From an uncultured SAR116 cluster alpha proteobacterium (GTDB taxonomy: Bacteria > Pseudomonadota > Alphaproteobacteria > Puniceispirillales > Puniceispirillaceae), in the NCBI GenBank assembly GCA_902583715.1, contig CACHXC010000002.1:1-64000 (forward strand): DNA of 64,000 bases. Direction: 5' to 3'. The position numbers and the translations under genes are program-made. The notes under the pieces were generated by a model. It was not told the DNA's origin. It was given only the letters and a program-made list of their open reading frames with translations, and did no database searches. Shown here one piece after another: positions 35,011-45,506 of the stretch. Positions within the stretch are counted from its first letter, which is position 1, and every line of letters begins with the position of its first letter.

Positions 35011-35952
35011 CTAGCCTTCATCAGACAGGCCAAGCTTTTCAAGAATCAGTGTCATTTGTTCCAGCGAGTGGCAGTCTATCTGCACCCGACCTGTTTCGGC
35101 GTGTTCGTTCCAATTTATCGACAGGGCCAGCCCCAATTCAATCGCAGCTCGCTGTTCAATGGCTTTTATATCGGCTGATTTTTCAGCTGTGGCCGGTTTT
35201 GTGGCCGCCAAGGTGGCCCCACTCACCGCCGTTTTCACCAGCGCTTCGGCCTGACGTGCCGACAAGCCTTTTGACACAATTGTTTTTGCTAATAATGCGG
35301 CTTGTGGATTGCCAATTAATGGCCGCGCCTGGCCCATGGTTAAATTACCATCGCGCAATAAGGTCTGAACCGATTCTGGCAGGCCAAGAAGCCGCAGAAG
35401 ATTGGCAATATGACTGCGCGATTTACCAATAATTTTAGATAGTTGGTCTTGTGTATAGCGATTGATCTCAAGCAGGTTGGCATAACCCTGCGCTTCATCA
35501 ATCACCGACAAATCTTGCCGCTGGATATTTTCAATCAGGGCAATTTCATAACATTCTGCATCGCTTAAATTACGAACAACCGCGGGGATTTCATGAAGTT
35601 GCGCCATTTGTGCCGCGCGCCAACGCCGCTCACCGGCGACAAGTTGAAACCGGCCGGGCTGATCAGGTGTCGGGCGCAATAAAATCGGTTGGACGATGCC
35701 TCTTTGACGGATCGAGTCAGCCAATTCCGTCAACTGTTCACGGTCGAATTGGCGGCGCGGTTGCCACGGGCCAACATTAATCCATTCCACCGGAATTTGT
35801 TGATATTCACGTTGGTCTGCCGGTGCCGCCTGATTGGCCGCCGCAGCAATACCACTATCACCAAGCAAGGTTGATAAGCCGCGTCCCAGACCGCGCGCTG
35901 TTGCGGTTGATTTTGCAGCATTTGCTGATTTTTGAGGAGGTTTAGACACCAT
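35011..35952 (-). CDS. parB: chromosome partitioning protein ParB
   Basis: A 313-residue CTPase clamp that loads at parS and spreads. The N-terminal tail GRGLSTLLGD is the ParA-stimulating region. PWQPRRQFDREQLTELADSIRQRGIVQPILLRP and VAGERRWRAAQMA form the CTP-binding N domain (GERRWRA box), ENIQRQDLSVIDEAQGY continues it, and KIIGKSRSHIANLLRLLGLP is the helix-turn-helix. The C-terminal dimer domain ends the protein. The start shares one base with the parA stop (TGATG). Two parS sites lie within 6 kb. Confidence 0.97.
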   Translation of the reverse strand: MVSKPPQKSANAAKSTATARGLGRGLSTLLGDSGIAAAANQAAPADQREYQQIPVEWINVGPWQPRRQFDREQLTELADSIRQRGIVQPILLRPTPDQPGRFQLVAGERRWRAAQMAQLHEIPAVVRNLSDAECYEIALIENIQRQDLSVIDEAQGYANLLEINRYTQDQLSKIIGKSRSHIANLLRLLGLPESVQTLLRDGNLTMGQARPLIGNPQAALLAKTIVSKGLSARQAEALVKTAVSGATLAATKPATAEKSADIKAIEQRAAIELGLALSINWNEHAETGRVQIDCHSLEQMTLILEKLGLSDEG

Positions 35953-36737
35953 CAGACCGCTTCCTTTTCCTGCGATAATAATTCGGCGGCCAATGCCACA
36001 TAAGCCTGCGCACCGGCACATTTAAGATCATATATCAACACAGGTTGGCCAAATGATGGCGCTTCCGAAATGCGAATATTCCTAGGAATTACAGTGTTAT
36101 AGACAAGATTTCTAAAATGTGCACGCACATCATTTGCGACCATTTCAGATAATTTATTGCGGCTGTCATGCATTGTCAAAACAATGCCTTGAACAACCAA
36201 ATGACGGTTCAGCCCCTGCTGGACCATTTGAATCGTACGCATTAATTGCGACAAGCCTTCCAGCGCATAAAATTCACATTGCAGCGGCACAATCACACAA
36301 TCAGCGGCACACAGTGCATTGATCGTCAATAGGCCCAGCGATGGCGGACAATCGATAAAAATATAATCATAGTGGGCTACCACTATCTGCAACGCCGTTT
36401 GCAAACGAAATTCACGTGCATCCACTTCTGCCAGCTCAATTTCTGCCGCCGATAAATCTACAATGGCGGGCAAAACATCAAGCCCTGCAATATCGGTTTT
36501 ATAACAGGCTTCGCGGGCCCCAACCTCGCCAGTTAGTAGCCGATAACTATTGGCATCGCGCCGCGCGTCAAGTTTAATGCCAAACCCAGTGCTGGCATTG
36601 CCTTGCGGGTCAAAATCCACGAGCAATACCCGGCGCCCACATGCGGCCATGGCAGTGGCCAAATTGACCGATGTTGTGGTTTTACCAACACCACCTTTTT
36701 GGTTTGCAATGGCAATGATGCGGGCTGTATCAGTCAT
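35952..36737 (-). CDS. parA: chromosome partitioning ATPase ParA
   Basis: A 261-residue deviant-Walker ATPase that moves ParB-parS complexes. Walker A is ANQKGGVGKTTTSVNLA with the signature lysine; A' is LLVDFDPQGNASTG, Walker B YIFIDCPPSLGLLT. The start is taken at the ATG MTDTARIIAI, matching the family; GTG three codons upstream is possible. It is first in parAB, downstream of rsmG on the same strand, the classic origin-proximal order. Confidence 0.98.
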   Translation of the reverse strand: MTDTARIIAIANQKGGVGKTTTSVNLATAMAACGRRVLLVDFDPQGNASTGFGIKLDARRDANSYRLLTGEVGAREACYKTDIAGLDVLPAIVDLSAAEIELAEVDAREFRLQTALQIVVAHYDYIFIDCPPSLGLLTINALCAADCVIVPLQCEFYALEGLSQLMRTIQMVQQGLNRHLVVQGIVLTMHDSRNKLSEMVANDVRAHFRNLVYNTVIPRNIRISEAPSFGQPVLIYDLKCAGAQAYVALAAELLSQEKEAV

Positions 36738-36809
36738 AAATTTCACGTCTCAGTCAGTTAATAATGATTGCTTTTGACACAAAGCACGGCGGTAATCCCC
36801 ATCAGATCA

Positions 36810-37421
36810 TCATTGCGGCGCGGTTAGCTTTACAATCACACCATCATCATTTGTCACGCTGGGATAAAGATGGGGTGTCATAGTGGAATAAGTTTGAAAA
36901 TTGGTCAATTCTTCATCGACTGATGCACCTTTCAAAAACAGACAAGTTAATCGTTTGTGAAGTTGCGCGTTAATCAATGACATTAATTTTGGCAGAGGCG
37001 CGAGCGCACGGGCTGTAATCACATCAGGCTGGCACGCTGGCAGACGCTCAATGCGCTGATTAATAACTCTGGCCGGCAGCGCCAATTCGCGAATGACCGT
37101 TTGCAAAAATACCGCCTTGCGCTGATCTGATTCGACAAGCTGAACTTCGCCAGCCCCAAGAATGGCCAATACCAGCCCGGGAAAGCCGGCACCGCTTCCA
37201 ATATCTAGGATTTGACAAGGCTGGCCAGAGGGTAGCGTTGGCAGATGCGGCACCAGCTGTGCTGAGTCCAAAATATGCCGGCGCCAAATATCCGGAAGAG
37301 TGACAGGTGATACAAGATTGATCCGCAGTTGCCATTTTTCTAACAGGGCCACAAAGGCCGATAGTGATACCAATGTTTCACGTGAAACATCAAAATGTGT
37401 GGTGAATTCTTCTGGCGTCAC
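36810..37421 (-). CDS. rsmG: 16S rRNA (guanine-527-N7) methyltransferase
   Basis: A 203-residue AdoMet-dependent enzyme (formerly GidB). It shows [27 protein letters not shown], the AdoMet loop [17 protein letters not shown], and [14 protein letters not shown]. The start is GTG, overlapping the mnmG stop by 4 bases (GTGA). Codons near its 5' end (DVSRETL) carry a perfect parS palindrome, so this coding region has a second, segregation role. Confidence 0.97.
37374..37389. other. parS centromere site 1 (inside rsmG)
   Basis: TGTTTCACGTGAAACA, a perfect match to the 16-bp chromosomal parS palindrome bound by ParB. It encodes residues of the DVSRETL stretch of rsmG. It is about 1.4 kb upstream of the parB start and about 7 kb from the oriC candidate. 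Confidence 0.95.
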
Positions 37422-40836: not shown

Positions 40837-41373
40837 ATGCACAATTCAAACACGCAACGATTTCATCTAAGCTGTAAGACACCAGTTGGCTGGCTTCGTG
40901 CCATATCAGATGGGTCGTATCTGATTCACCTTGATTGGAACCAAATTGGTTGGACAGACCCAGATCGTCCCGACCATGTTTCACGTGAAACAATCACACA
41001 ATTAAAGGCTTATTTTGCCGGTCAACGTACTAACTTTACCATGCCACTACGCCCCGCCAACATCAGCCCGGCGCGCCAGCTTTGGCTTAACATCATGGCA
41101 AGCATTCCGTATGGCACCACCATCAGCTATGCTGCATTTGCCGCCGCCGCCGGCGCGCCTAACGCCGCCAGGGCCGCCGGAACCGCTTGTGCCACAAACC
41201 CCATACCCATCATTTACCCTTGTCACCGAGTCGTACGCAAAAATGGCGCGCTAGGGCATTATGGCGGCGGCAGTCAATTAGCGCCCAATCATAAAGACAA
41301 TTTGGCCCGCAAAGAGTTTTTAATTGCACATGAAAAAAGCCAGCTAGATGAGGGCCAGCTTATTCTGACCTAG
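40837..41373 (+). CDS. ogt: methylated-DNA--protein-cysteine methyltransferase
   Basis: A 178-residue suicide repair enzyme removing alkyl groups from O6-methylguanine. The active-site motif [21 protein letters not shown] contains acceptor Cys129; [24 protein letters not shown] is the recognition helix with the Arg finger region. Codons for PDHVSRET contain a perfect parS site. Its stop overlaps the convergent rho stop by 4 bases. It interrupts the same-strand hemE-to-parB series and is read the opposite way. Confidence 0.95.
40977..40992. other. parS centromere site 2 (inside ogt)
   Basis: A second perfect TGTTTCACGTGAAACA, within the ogt coding sequence (HVSRETI), about 3.3 kb from the oriC candidate. 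With site 1 it places the ParB-loading zone on one side of the origin. Confidence 0.95.
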
Positions 41374-43259: not shown

Positions 43260-44294
43260 CTAGTGGTGACGCTGTCTCACATGGTCCAACATCAATTGCA
43301 CATTTTCGATCGGCGTTGGCGGTGTAATGCCATGCCCTAGATTGAATATATGTGGTCTTGATGCAAAAGCGTCAAGAATATGGTCGATATCTTTAAACAT
43401 ATTTGGCCCAGCTTGAAGCAAGCTTAATGGGTCTAAATTGCCTTGTACGGGAAAATTTTTAGGTAAATTTTTGTCAACCCACACTGGGTCAATGCCATGA
43501 TCTAAACCAACCGCATTAACTGATGAATGTTCAACATAAGCAATCAATCCTTCACCAATGCCTTTTGGAAACCCAATAATTGGTTGAAAATGCCCTTTTT
43601 CACGCAAGCCAGTAACAATTTTTCTGGTGGGTTCAATCACTAACCAATTACGTTGGGCGGCGGGTACTGCACTTGCCCAACTATCAAACAACATTAATGC
43701 ATCAGCACCAGCTCTAGCCTGTAAAGATAAAAAATTGATGGTTGATTCAATGAGGCTGTCCAACAACCCATCCATCTCTTTTTGATACTGCCACGCCCAG
43801 CCCCGCGCTTTTGCAAAATCACGTGAAGACCCACCTTCTGCCATATAGGTTATGATGGTCCAAGGTGCACCAGCAAATCCAATCAATGCTGTTTGAGGTG
43901 ATAATTGCGCTTTTGTTAGACGTATGGCTTTTGCAACGGGGGCTAATTTTTCCGAAACGCTGTCGATTAAATCATTGCTAAACATAGATGGCTTATCGAG
44001 TGAGTCAAGTAATGGGCCAATATTTGGTTGAAACCGGACATTTTGTTCCAATGCCCATGGTACCATCAGAATATCTGAAAATATAATAGCAGCATCAAAT
44101 CCATATCGAGTAATTGGTTGCAAAGTGACAGCTGATGCTTGTTCAGGATTAAGGCAAAATGAAATGAAGTCTTTTTGGGTGGCACGAATCGCACGATATT
44201 CTGCTAAATACCGACCGGCTTGGCGCATAATCCACATAGGCGTTTTATTTTGTTTGTGACCATTAACGGTTTTTATGAACAGGTTGTCGGTCAT
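43260..44294 (-). CDS. hemE: uroporphyrinogen decarboxylase
   Basis: A 344-residue haem-pathway enzyme converting uroporphyrinogen III to coproporphyrinogen III. TPMWIMRQAGRYLAEYRAIR contains the conserved Arg pair; SDILMVPWALEQNV, GFAGAPWTIITYMAEGG, LMLFDSWASAVP and GNLDPLSLL follow, with NLGHGITPPTPIENV near the end. AGAGAG precedes the ATG. It borders the oriC candidate, as in Caulobacter and Rickettsia. Confidence 0.98.
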   Translation of the reverse strand: MTDNLFIKTVNGHKQNKTPMWIMRQAGRYLAEYRAIRATQKDFISFCLNPEQASAVTLQPITRYGFDAAIIFSDILMVPWALEQNVRFQPNIGPLLDSLDKPSMFSNDLIDSVSEKLAPVAKAIRLTKAQLSPQTALIGFAGAPWTIITYMAEGGSSRDFAKARGWAWQYQKEMDGLLDSLIESTINFLSLQARAGADALMLFDSWASAVPAAQRNWLVIEPTRKIVTGLREKGHFQPIIGFPKGIGEGLIAYVEHSSVNAVGLDHGIDPVWVDKNLPKNFPVQGNLDPLSLLQAGPNMFKDIDHILDAFASRPHIFNLGHGITPPTPIENVQLMLDHVRQRHH

Positions 44295-44678
44295 ATATCT
44301 CTCTAGTCACTATATAAATATATATATAAAAGTAGTTGTTTTAGTCGGTCTTGTGCAGAAGTGCAATTATCCATTTATGCCGGTTTCTAACACAATATTA
44401 TCCCCATTATGATTTTGTTTTTTATATTTAAAACAATGGATAAAAAAGTTATCCGCAGAATTTTGCGGTTGCTGATCTGAACTTATCCACCTGTTCGTAA
44501 AATAGAGCTTTATTTGTATAACCGCTTGGCTGTATCTGGGTCTTTTAAATAATCCCCAGTGAGATGTCCATTCTACACAGGCTCTGTTTATATGTCTTTG
44601 CGGTGTCTATTAGTGAATCAGTTTAGCATTGTCATGAAACAGGTGACAAAGATCATCGATCGGCCTAAACCAATTTGT
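44295..44678. other. probable chromosomal replication origin (oriC) between hemE and ppsR
   Basis: The longest gene-free interval of the window, and AT-rich. An AT tract TATATAAATATATATATAAAA lies next to hemE near 44310. Five DnaA-box-like 9-mers follow: 44367-44375 TTATCCATT, 44398-44406 TTATCCCCA, 44435-44443 TTATCCATT on the minus strand, 44449-44457 TTATCCGCA, and 44483-44491 TTATCCACC. One GANTC site is at 44615-44619. The location between hemE and the RP001/ppsR gene is the known origin site in Caulobacter and Rickettsia. Function here is inferred. Confidence 0.82.
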
Positions 44679-45506
44679 ATGACGACAAAACAAACATTGC
44701 ATATACATCTTGTATCTGACTCAACAGGTGAAACAGTCCATCAAGTCGCGCGTGCTTGTGTGGCACAATTTCCGAATGTGACAACAGTTGAACATGTTTG
44801 GACGTTGGTGCGATCAGAGGCGCATTTCGATGCGGTTTGTGCCGGGCTCGATCGTAATCCCGGTGTATTGCTGATGAGTATTGTGAATGATGACATGCGC
44901 GACATGATTGCCAATGCTTGTCAGTCGCGCGGCATTCAGGCTGTGTCAATTTTAGATCCTGTGGTGAATTTATTAGGCCGGGTTCTTGGTCAGGCCACAC
45001 AAAATTTACCTGGTGGCCAGCGGCGGTTAAATACGGCCTATTTTGACCGTGTTGCTGCAGTTGATTTTGCCGTCAGCCATGACGATGGGATGAATATGGG
45101 ACAGTTGGACCGGGCCGATATTCTTCTTGTCGGGGTGTCGCGTACGTCTAAAACACCCACTTCTATGTATTTGGCGCATCGGGGTTATAAGGTTGCCAAT
45201 TACGCATTGGTGCCGCATGTACCCTTTCCCTTGCATTACCTTGACGGGCTCAATTTACTTGTCGTTGGTTTGACCAATGACCCCAAGCGGCTAAGCCAAA
45301 TACGCCGTACCCGTCAGGTGGCGATGGCTGATACCGATAATCAGACTTATGCTGATATTGACCAGATTACTGAAGAAATCCGCAACGCCCGCCGGTTATT
45401 CACTAAACAGGGATGGCCGGTGATTGATGTGACACGTCGTTCGGTTGAAGAAACGGCTGCTGCTATTATCCAGCTCTATACAAATTGGAAAGAAACGCAG
45501 GGATGA
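44679..45506 (+). CDS. ppsR: pyruvate, phosphate dikinase / PEP synthase regulatory protein (DUF299)
   Basis: A 275-residue bifunctional kinase/pyrophosphorylase that switches PPDK or PEP synthase. IHLVSDSTGETVHQVARAC is the N-terminal signature, ADILLVGVSRTSKTPTSMYLAHRGYKVANYALVP contains the P-loop-like GVSRTSKT, and VGLTNDPKRLSQIRRTR follows. ATG 44679 (MTTKQTLHIH) fits family starts; GTG 44559 and ATG 44634 extend into the origin region and lack support. It is the RP001 homologue beside oriC and overlaps maf by 4 bases. Confidence 0.93.
   Translation: MTTKQTLHIHLVSDSTGETVHQVARACVAQFPNVTTVEHVWTLVRSEAHFDAVCAGLDRNPGVLLMSIVNDDMRDMIANACQSRGIQAVSILDPVVNLLGRVLGQATQNLPGGQRRLNTAYFDRVAAVDFAVSHDDGMNMGQLDRADILLVGVSRTSKTPTSMYLAHRGYKVANYALVPHVPFPLHYLDGLNLLVVGLTNDPKRLSQIRRTRQVAMADTDNQTYADIDQITEEIRNARRLFTKQGWPVIDVTRRSVEETAAAIIQLYTNWKETQG

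Follow-up and report, generated by a model that had tools for sequence, protein, structure and literature searches.

The stretch analysed here (the window) comprises bases 1-64,000 of contig 2 (124,324 bp) of a 1.49 Mb draft genome in 51 contigs that is 59.8% complete and that, among named records, is most closely related to Candidatus Puniceispirillum and SAR116. At 44295-44678 it contains an intergenic interval bounded on the left by hemE, encoding uroporphyrinogen decarboxylase (43260-44294, minus strand; NCBIfam TIGR01464, 351.8 bits, above cut-off), and on the right by ppsR, encoding a COG1806/DUF299 regulator orthologous to Caulobacter CC_0001 (44679-45506, plus strand; NCBIfam NF003742, 314.9 bits, above cut-off). 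The A+T content of the interval is 66% as compared with 47-54% in blocks of the contig, and an Rfam scan of the window returned two tRNAs and nothing else. The interval had been described as the longest non-coding one, which was not confirmed, a crude ORF model giving longer gaps, for example at 685-1469 (including a tRNA). It had also been placed at the locus where oriC was mapped in Caulobacter and predicted in Rickettsia, and the same boundary genes are indeed present here; a position between or next to hemE and COG1806 is one of the alphaproteobacterial origin criteria of PMC1914354. Three others given there, more DnaA boxes than in other regions, an A+T content exceeding the genome average and a GC-skew shift, also apply to this interval.

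The preliminary description listed five DnaA-box-like 9-mers, and all were found in place, spanning exactly 125 bp with one on the minus strand: TTATCCATT at 44367-44375 (plus), TTATCCCCA at 44398-44406 (plus), TTATCCATT again at 44435-44443 (minus), TTATCCGCA at 44449-44457 (plus) and TTATCCACC at 44483-44491 (plus). Both copies of TTATCCATT are weak boxes with two mismatches. If up to one mismatch to TTATNCACA is allowed, as is usual, six sites are present in the interval, namely TTCTGCACA (44352-44360, minus strand), TTATCCCCA, which is of the W-box type, TTATCCGCA, TTATCCACC, TTATACAAA (44513-44521, minus strand) and TTCTACACA (44571-44579, plus strand), the CACA of the last being invariant in the genus alignment. 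This compares with 0.28 sites expected per 384 bp of contig, and none of 2000 dinucleotide shuffles reached six. DnaA boxes are clustered more densely here than anywhere else on the 124-kb contig, where no other place has more than three sites with at most one mismatch. Similarly, TTATCC occurs five times as compared with 0.32 in shuffles (0 of 2000 reaching five), the next best cluster on the contig having two. Two further sites one mismatch from TTATNCACA, TAATCCACA and TTATGAACA, were observed at 44228-44236 and 44273-44281 within the beginning of hemE, and the functional origin may thus reach into this gene.

No exact TTATCCACA or TTATNCACA, the latter being the strict form used in PMC1914354, is present in the interval. 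The absence of a perfect box, noted earlier, is thus correct; the suggestion that it reflects a special mode of DnaA recognition is not sustained. Several close relatives possess exact boxes: several carry one near the position of the 44398 box (TTATCCACA in one of them, G002), and the place aligned to the 44513 box is occupied by an exact inverted box in several. At the place of 44352-44360 most of the genus has TGTGTGTAA or TGTGGATAA. Exact TTATNCACA is also lacking from 5 of 21 family origins, and domain IV of the DnaA encoded by this genome is canonical, aligning with the DnaA-box-bound E. coli DNA-binding domain (1j1v) including the motif FGGRDHTTV. Altered DnaA specificity as the cause of the imperfect boxes was rejected on the ground of this canonical domain, and there is no sign of a change in DnaA recognition.

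An AT tract had likewise been noted within the interval. When the stability of 50-bp segments was calculated from nearest-neighbour energies over the whole contig, the least stable 50 bp was found to begin at 44294, and this tract beside hemE (44294-44343) is a probable DNA-unwinding element. The 50-bp stability minimum is at the hemE-side end in 11 of 13 origins of the genus. A second AT-rich unstable segment, the third least stable of the contig, lies between boxes at 44404-44453.

GC skew had been put forward as a check, and the cumulative minimum on the contig lies at 43842 with the cumulative curve rising from there to the right end, indicating a reversal beside the interval. Because the draft covers 60% of this genome and is split into 51 contigs, whole-chromosome skew evidence was taken from two complete relatives sampled in stretches. 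In G004 (2.59 Mb) the cumulative minimum over 200 contiguous kb lies 48 bp past the end of the homologous interval (1491384-1491796), at 1491844, and in G020 (2.75 Mb), again over 200 contiguous kb, it falls at 1808564, inside the homologous interval (1808505-1808884). The sign of the skew flips back near the antipodes (195 kb in G004 and 432 kb in G020) in the sampled stretches, as it should at termini. The DnaA-box cluster at hemE-ppsR was the largest of all stretches sampled in both genomes.

Chromosome partition functions are also encoded nearby. Genes for parA (35952-36746) and parB (35011-36021), named by eye from ORF translations, lie on the minus strand at 35011-36746, and two perfect copies of the parS palindrome TGTTTCACGTGAAACA are present at 37374-37389, inside rsmG (gidB), and at 40977-40992, inside a methyltransferase gene (40837-41373); even when two mismatches are allowed, the expectation for the window is 0.01. 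These elements lie 3-9 kb from the interval, and in Caulobacter no more than 8 kb separate parS from the origin (PMC4468827). Both parS sites encode the peptide VSRET in their respective genes, the partition site thus being part of the coding sequence of two unrelated proteins.

The arrangement is widely conserved. In 74 of the 80 named loci hemE stands divergent and immediately upstream of ppsR (the remainder mostly end before it), and the same holds for 54 of 60 loci sampled class-wide across many families. Within the genus the hemE-ppsR spacer measures 368-413 bp, and in 14 aligned origins the positions of boxes and W-box are kept while the sequence between boxes drifts. The best conserved element is W-box-like (AATCCCC near base 257 of the spacer), identified by alignment and enrichment and represented in the window by TAATCCCCA at 44550-44558 (plus strand). 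Unbiased 7-mer counting in both spacer sets (see below) placed DnaA-box words and ATCCCCA at the top, the latter enriched 12.5-fold and 7.5-fold, with the other substitutions at the same base of ATCCACA reaching no more than 3.1-fold. According to a 2024 review the weak W-box is known from Caulobacter only (PMC10797057); given the ATCCCCA enrichment in both sets, Caulobacter-type W-boxes seem to be class-wide, and this element, enriched 7- to 12-fold, may be a general component of alphaproteobacterial origins. The Caulobacter G-box core TGATCC was also considered as an origin feature and rejected, being without enrichment (1.1-1.2 fold). The nearest relative of the window in this comparison was NZEI01000010 (ARS1012), a record labelled Gammaproteobacteria, whose origin is near-identical and whose ppsR product is 97% identical over the first 112 residues; its closeness to the window suggests that the label is wrong.

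The location, skew, box cluster, instability and conserved positions computed here, together with the proximity of parS and parAB and the conserved gene adjacency, bear out the earlier reading of this locus as a chromosomal origin: the interval 44295-44678 is almost certainly oriC of this Candidatus Puniceispirillum (SAR116) genome and of the hemE/COG1806 type. No report of a SAR116 origin was found in the literature searched. The assignment fixes the origin for an abundant uncultivated marine lineage, which is needed by growth-rate estimates made from metagenome coverage.

Next to hemE the interval also carries a DnaA-trio-like run, TAG TTG TTT TAG TCG (44333-44347, plus strand), which belongs to a family-wide, strand- and position-specific 3-bp periodicity and lies 4 nt from the inverted box TTCTGCACA. 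The window's own run is weak and imperfect, with one TTT, one TCG, a middle A in two of five triplets and a degenerate adjoining box. The pattern was more apparent in relatives, where beside hemE an AT tract is followed by, for example, GGTAGTTGTTTTAGTAGTGCC and next by TGTGGATAA or TGTGTGTAA as an inverted box. It was analyzed in 125 hemE-ppsR spacers, 71 from a non-redundant named set and 54 from a class-wide set; in these, T[T/A/G]G triplets follow the AT tract in register and on one strand only, and in many cases they lead, after a short gap, to an inverted DnaA box. The class-wide set was collected once the pattern was known from the named one, which makes it an independent check; the T[AT]G definition was left unchanged and the scan extended from 110 to 150-160 bp. 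The purest runs, with five or six TTG in succession next to hemE, were observed in three MarineAlpha3 and Rhodospirillales records (L170, L176 and L178).

The published trio rule (an inverted box with at most two mismatches, a spacer of at most 16 nt and at least three NAN triplets; PMC8287927) is passed by the window, but because it fires equally on control strands a register test for TNG was used that leaves the middle base free, with three controls (other strand or other end) and shuffles. At least four of six TNG were in register on one strand at the hemE end in 34 of 71 named and 20 of 54 class-wide spacers, as compared with 0-4 in each of the three controls and 2% of shuffles. In both sets 73% of T[AT]G pairs lay at multiples of three; shuffles gave 41% and 39%, and at most 57% and 54%. 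The confinement of the run to one strand and one end argues against the alternative that, in a genuine oriC, the triplets are a hemE leader or promoter sequence or a functionless (GTT)n, with opening achieved by AT-richness and E. coli-like TTGT/TTATT motifs. The run also mixes TTG, TAG and TGG rather than repeating a single unit, and its phase relative to hemE varies, with the hemE frame already closed by a stop ahead of the triplets in 32 of 54 origins; both features weigh against that alternative, and the latter two observations rule out hemE coding sequence as the cause of the triplets. At the hemE end, 9 of 71 named and 11 of 54 class-wide origins have three perfect TNG within 16 bp of a box, and the three controls have no such case, a result that favours a trio by its restriction to one end and disfavours it by the small number of origins. 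Middle bases of the register-chosen TNG in both sets were T 122, A 68, G 40 and C 5, and no run of three pure TAG was present in the 125 origins. In favour of the alternative, most triplets lack the middle adenine that is held in B. subtilis by Asn187 of DnaA, and T at this place impairs opening there (PMC10721633); the TTG repeats, moreover, include the E. coli single-strand motif TTGT (PMC10797057). We regard a role other than that of a trio as a serious possibility, though not a probable one.

The trio variant itself is a well-supported sequence pattern with a putative function. As judged from this pattern, alphaproteobacterial origins including the present one may use a DnaA-trio element with triplets T[T/A/G]G in which a middle T is commonest, a proposal to which we give an even chance. 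The DnaA of this genome matches the B. subtilis structure 8btg over its length and, of the trio-capturing residues (numbering after PMC10721633), Asn187, Glu183 and Glu228 align with identical residues in SAR116 DnaA, with Ile190 replaced by V, Ile193 by L and Arg202 by K. The preference for T in spite of these retained residues could mean that alphaproteobacterial DnaA accommodates T through a different contact, or else that the run works in the manner of the E. coli TTGT/TTATT motifs (PMC10797057). If the trio proposal is right, this would be the "deviant trio" lacking a middle adenine that the authors of PMC8287927 suspected without demonstration, working despite a retained adenine-reading asparagine. 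No report of alphaproteobacterial trios without middle adenine was found in the literature searched, which excluded the original trio paper (Nature 2016). The generality of the trio rule becomes testable in this class, the middle T that impairs opening in B. subtilis being the commonest here.

The interval is very probably the single chromosomal origin. By analogy with work on Bacillus, Thermotoga and E. coli, from which DnaA binding, filament growth and strand opening are taken, DnaA would bind the boxes of weak and moderate strength dispersed over it. The one at 44352-44360, which is inverted, would anchor DnaA beside the hemE-side AT tract, and a filament might extend from it onto the single strand carrying the triplet run, opening the AT tract so that helicase could load and bidirectional replication begin. 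The order of AT tract, triplets, short spacer and inverted box is that of the B. subtilis and T. maritima DnaA-trio systems (BUS and eTrio; PMC8287927, PMC10316083), although these have a middle A and the triplets here have mostly T and often A or G. The T-rich strand with TTGT/TTTT elements beside DnaA boxes resembles the unwinding element of E. coli oriC (TTATT and TTGT single-strand motifs), from which the SAR116 type differs by a clear 3-bp register, an anchoring inverted box and another gene neighbourhood.

That the origin lies elsewhere, for example beside dnaA (C2:118456, 74 kb away on the same contig), as oriC does in many bacteria, and that the interval is a hemE/ppsR promoter region with regulatory DnaA boxes, is very improbable, since although the AT tract may hold a hemE promoter (the lower strand is TATAAT-like near the hemE start in relatives), the contig box scan detected no cluster beside dnaA, the skew minima of both complete relatives are at the hemE-ppsR interval, and cluster size, conserved layout and parS proximity suit an origin and not a promoter.

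As the oriC of this genome, the interval is an ordinary member of the hemE/COG1806 type, without CtrA sites. It shares with Caulobacter crescentus Cori the flanking genes, a similar size, an AT tract, clustered DnaA boxes, weak W-boxes (TCCCCA) and nearby parS (PMC1914354, PMC4285127, PMC4468827). Unlike Cori, it has no TTAA-N7-TTAA CtrA sites, no TGATCCACA G-boxes and no strict match to the IHF site WATCAN5WTR on either strand, though degenerate IHF sites may be present. The lack of strict CtrA and IHF sites and of a perfect box weighs against the origin assignment. The Rickettsia prowazekii origin has the same boundary genes and was predicted by the same criteria (PMC1914354), but its reported CtrA and IHF sites have no counterpart in the SAR116 interval. 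Among the spacers compared, just two of the 71 named and four of the 54 class-wide ones have any TTAA-N7-TTAA, and some Ehrlichia and Wolbachia origins likewise lack CtrA sites (PMC1914354). The GANTC site reported near the ppsR start does exist, as a single copy at 44615-44619, 64 bp before that start; it is not a genus feature, being common to the nearest relative (NZEI01000010, L179) only and missing from 14 other genus origins. In the named spacers, from SAR116 and nearby groups, GANTC occurs less often than expected, and GANTC/CcrM control was rejected as a defining feature on account of the single, unconserved site. CtrA control was also rejected, the interval having no strict site. Elsewhere in the genome, a CtrA-like response-regulator gene on contig C31 (approximately 1385-1900; L182) was observed to contain an internal TAG stop, representing a pseudogene or an assembly error.
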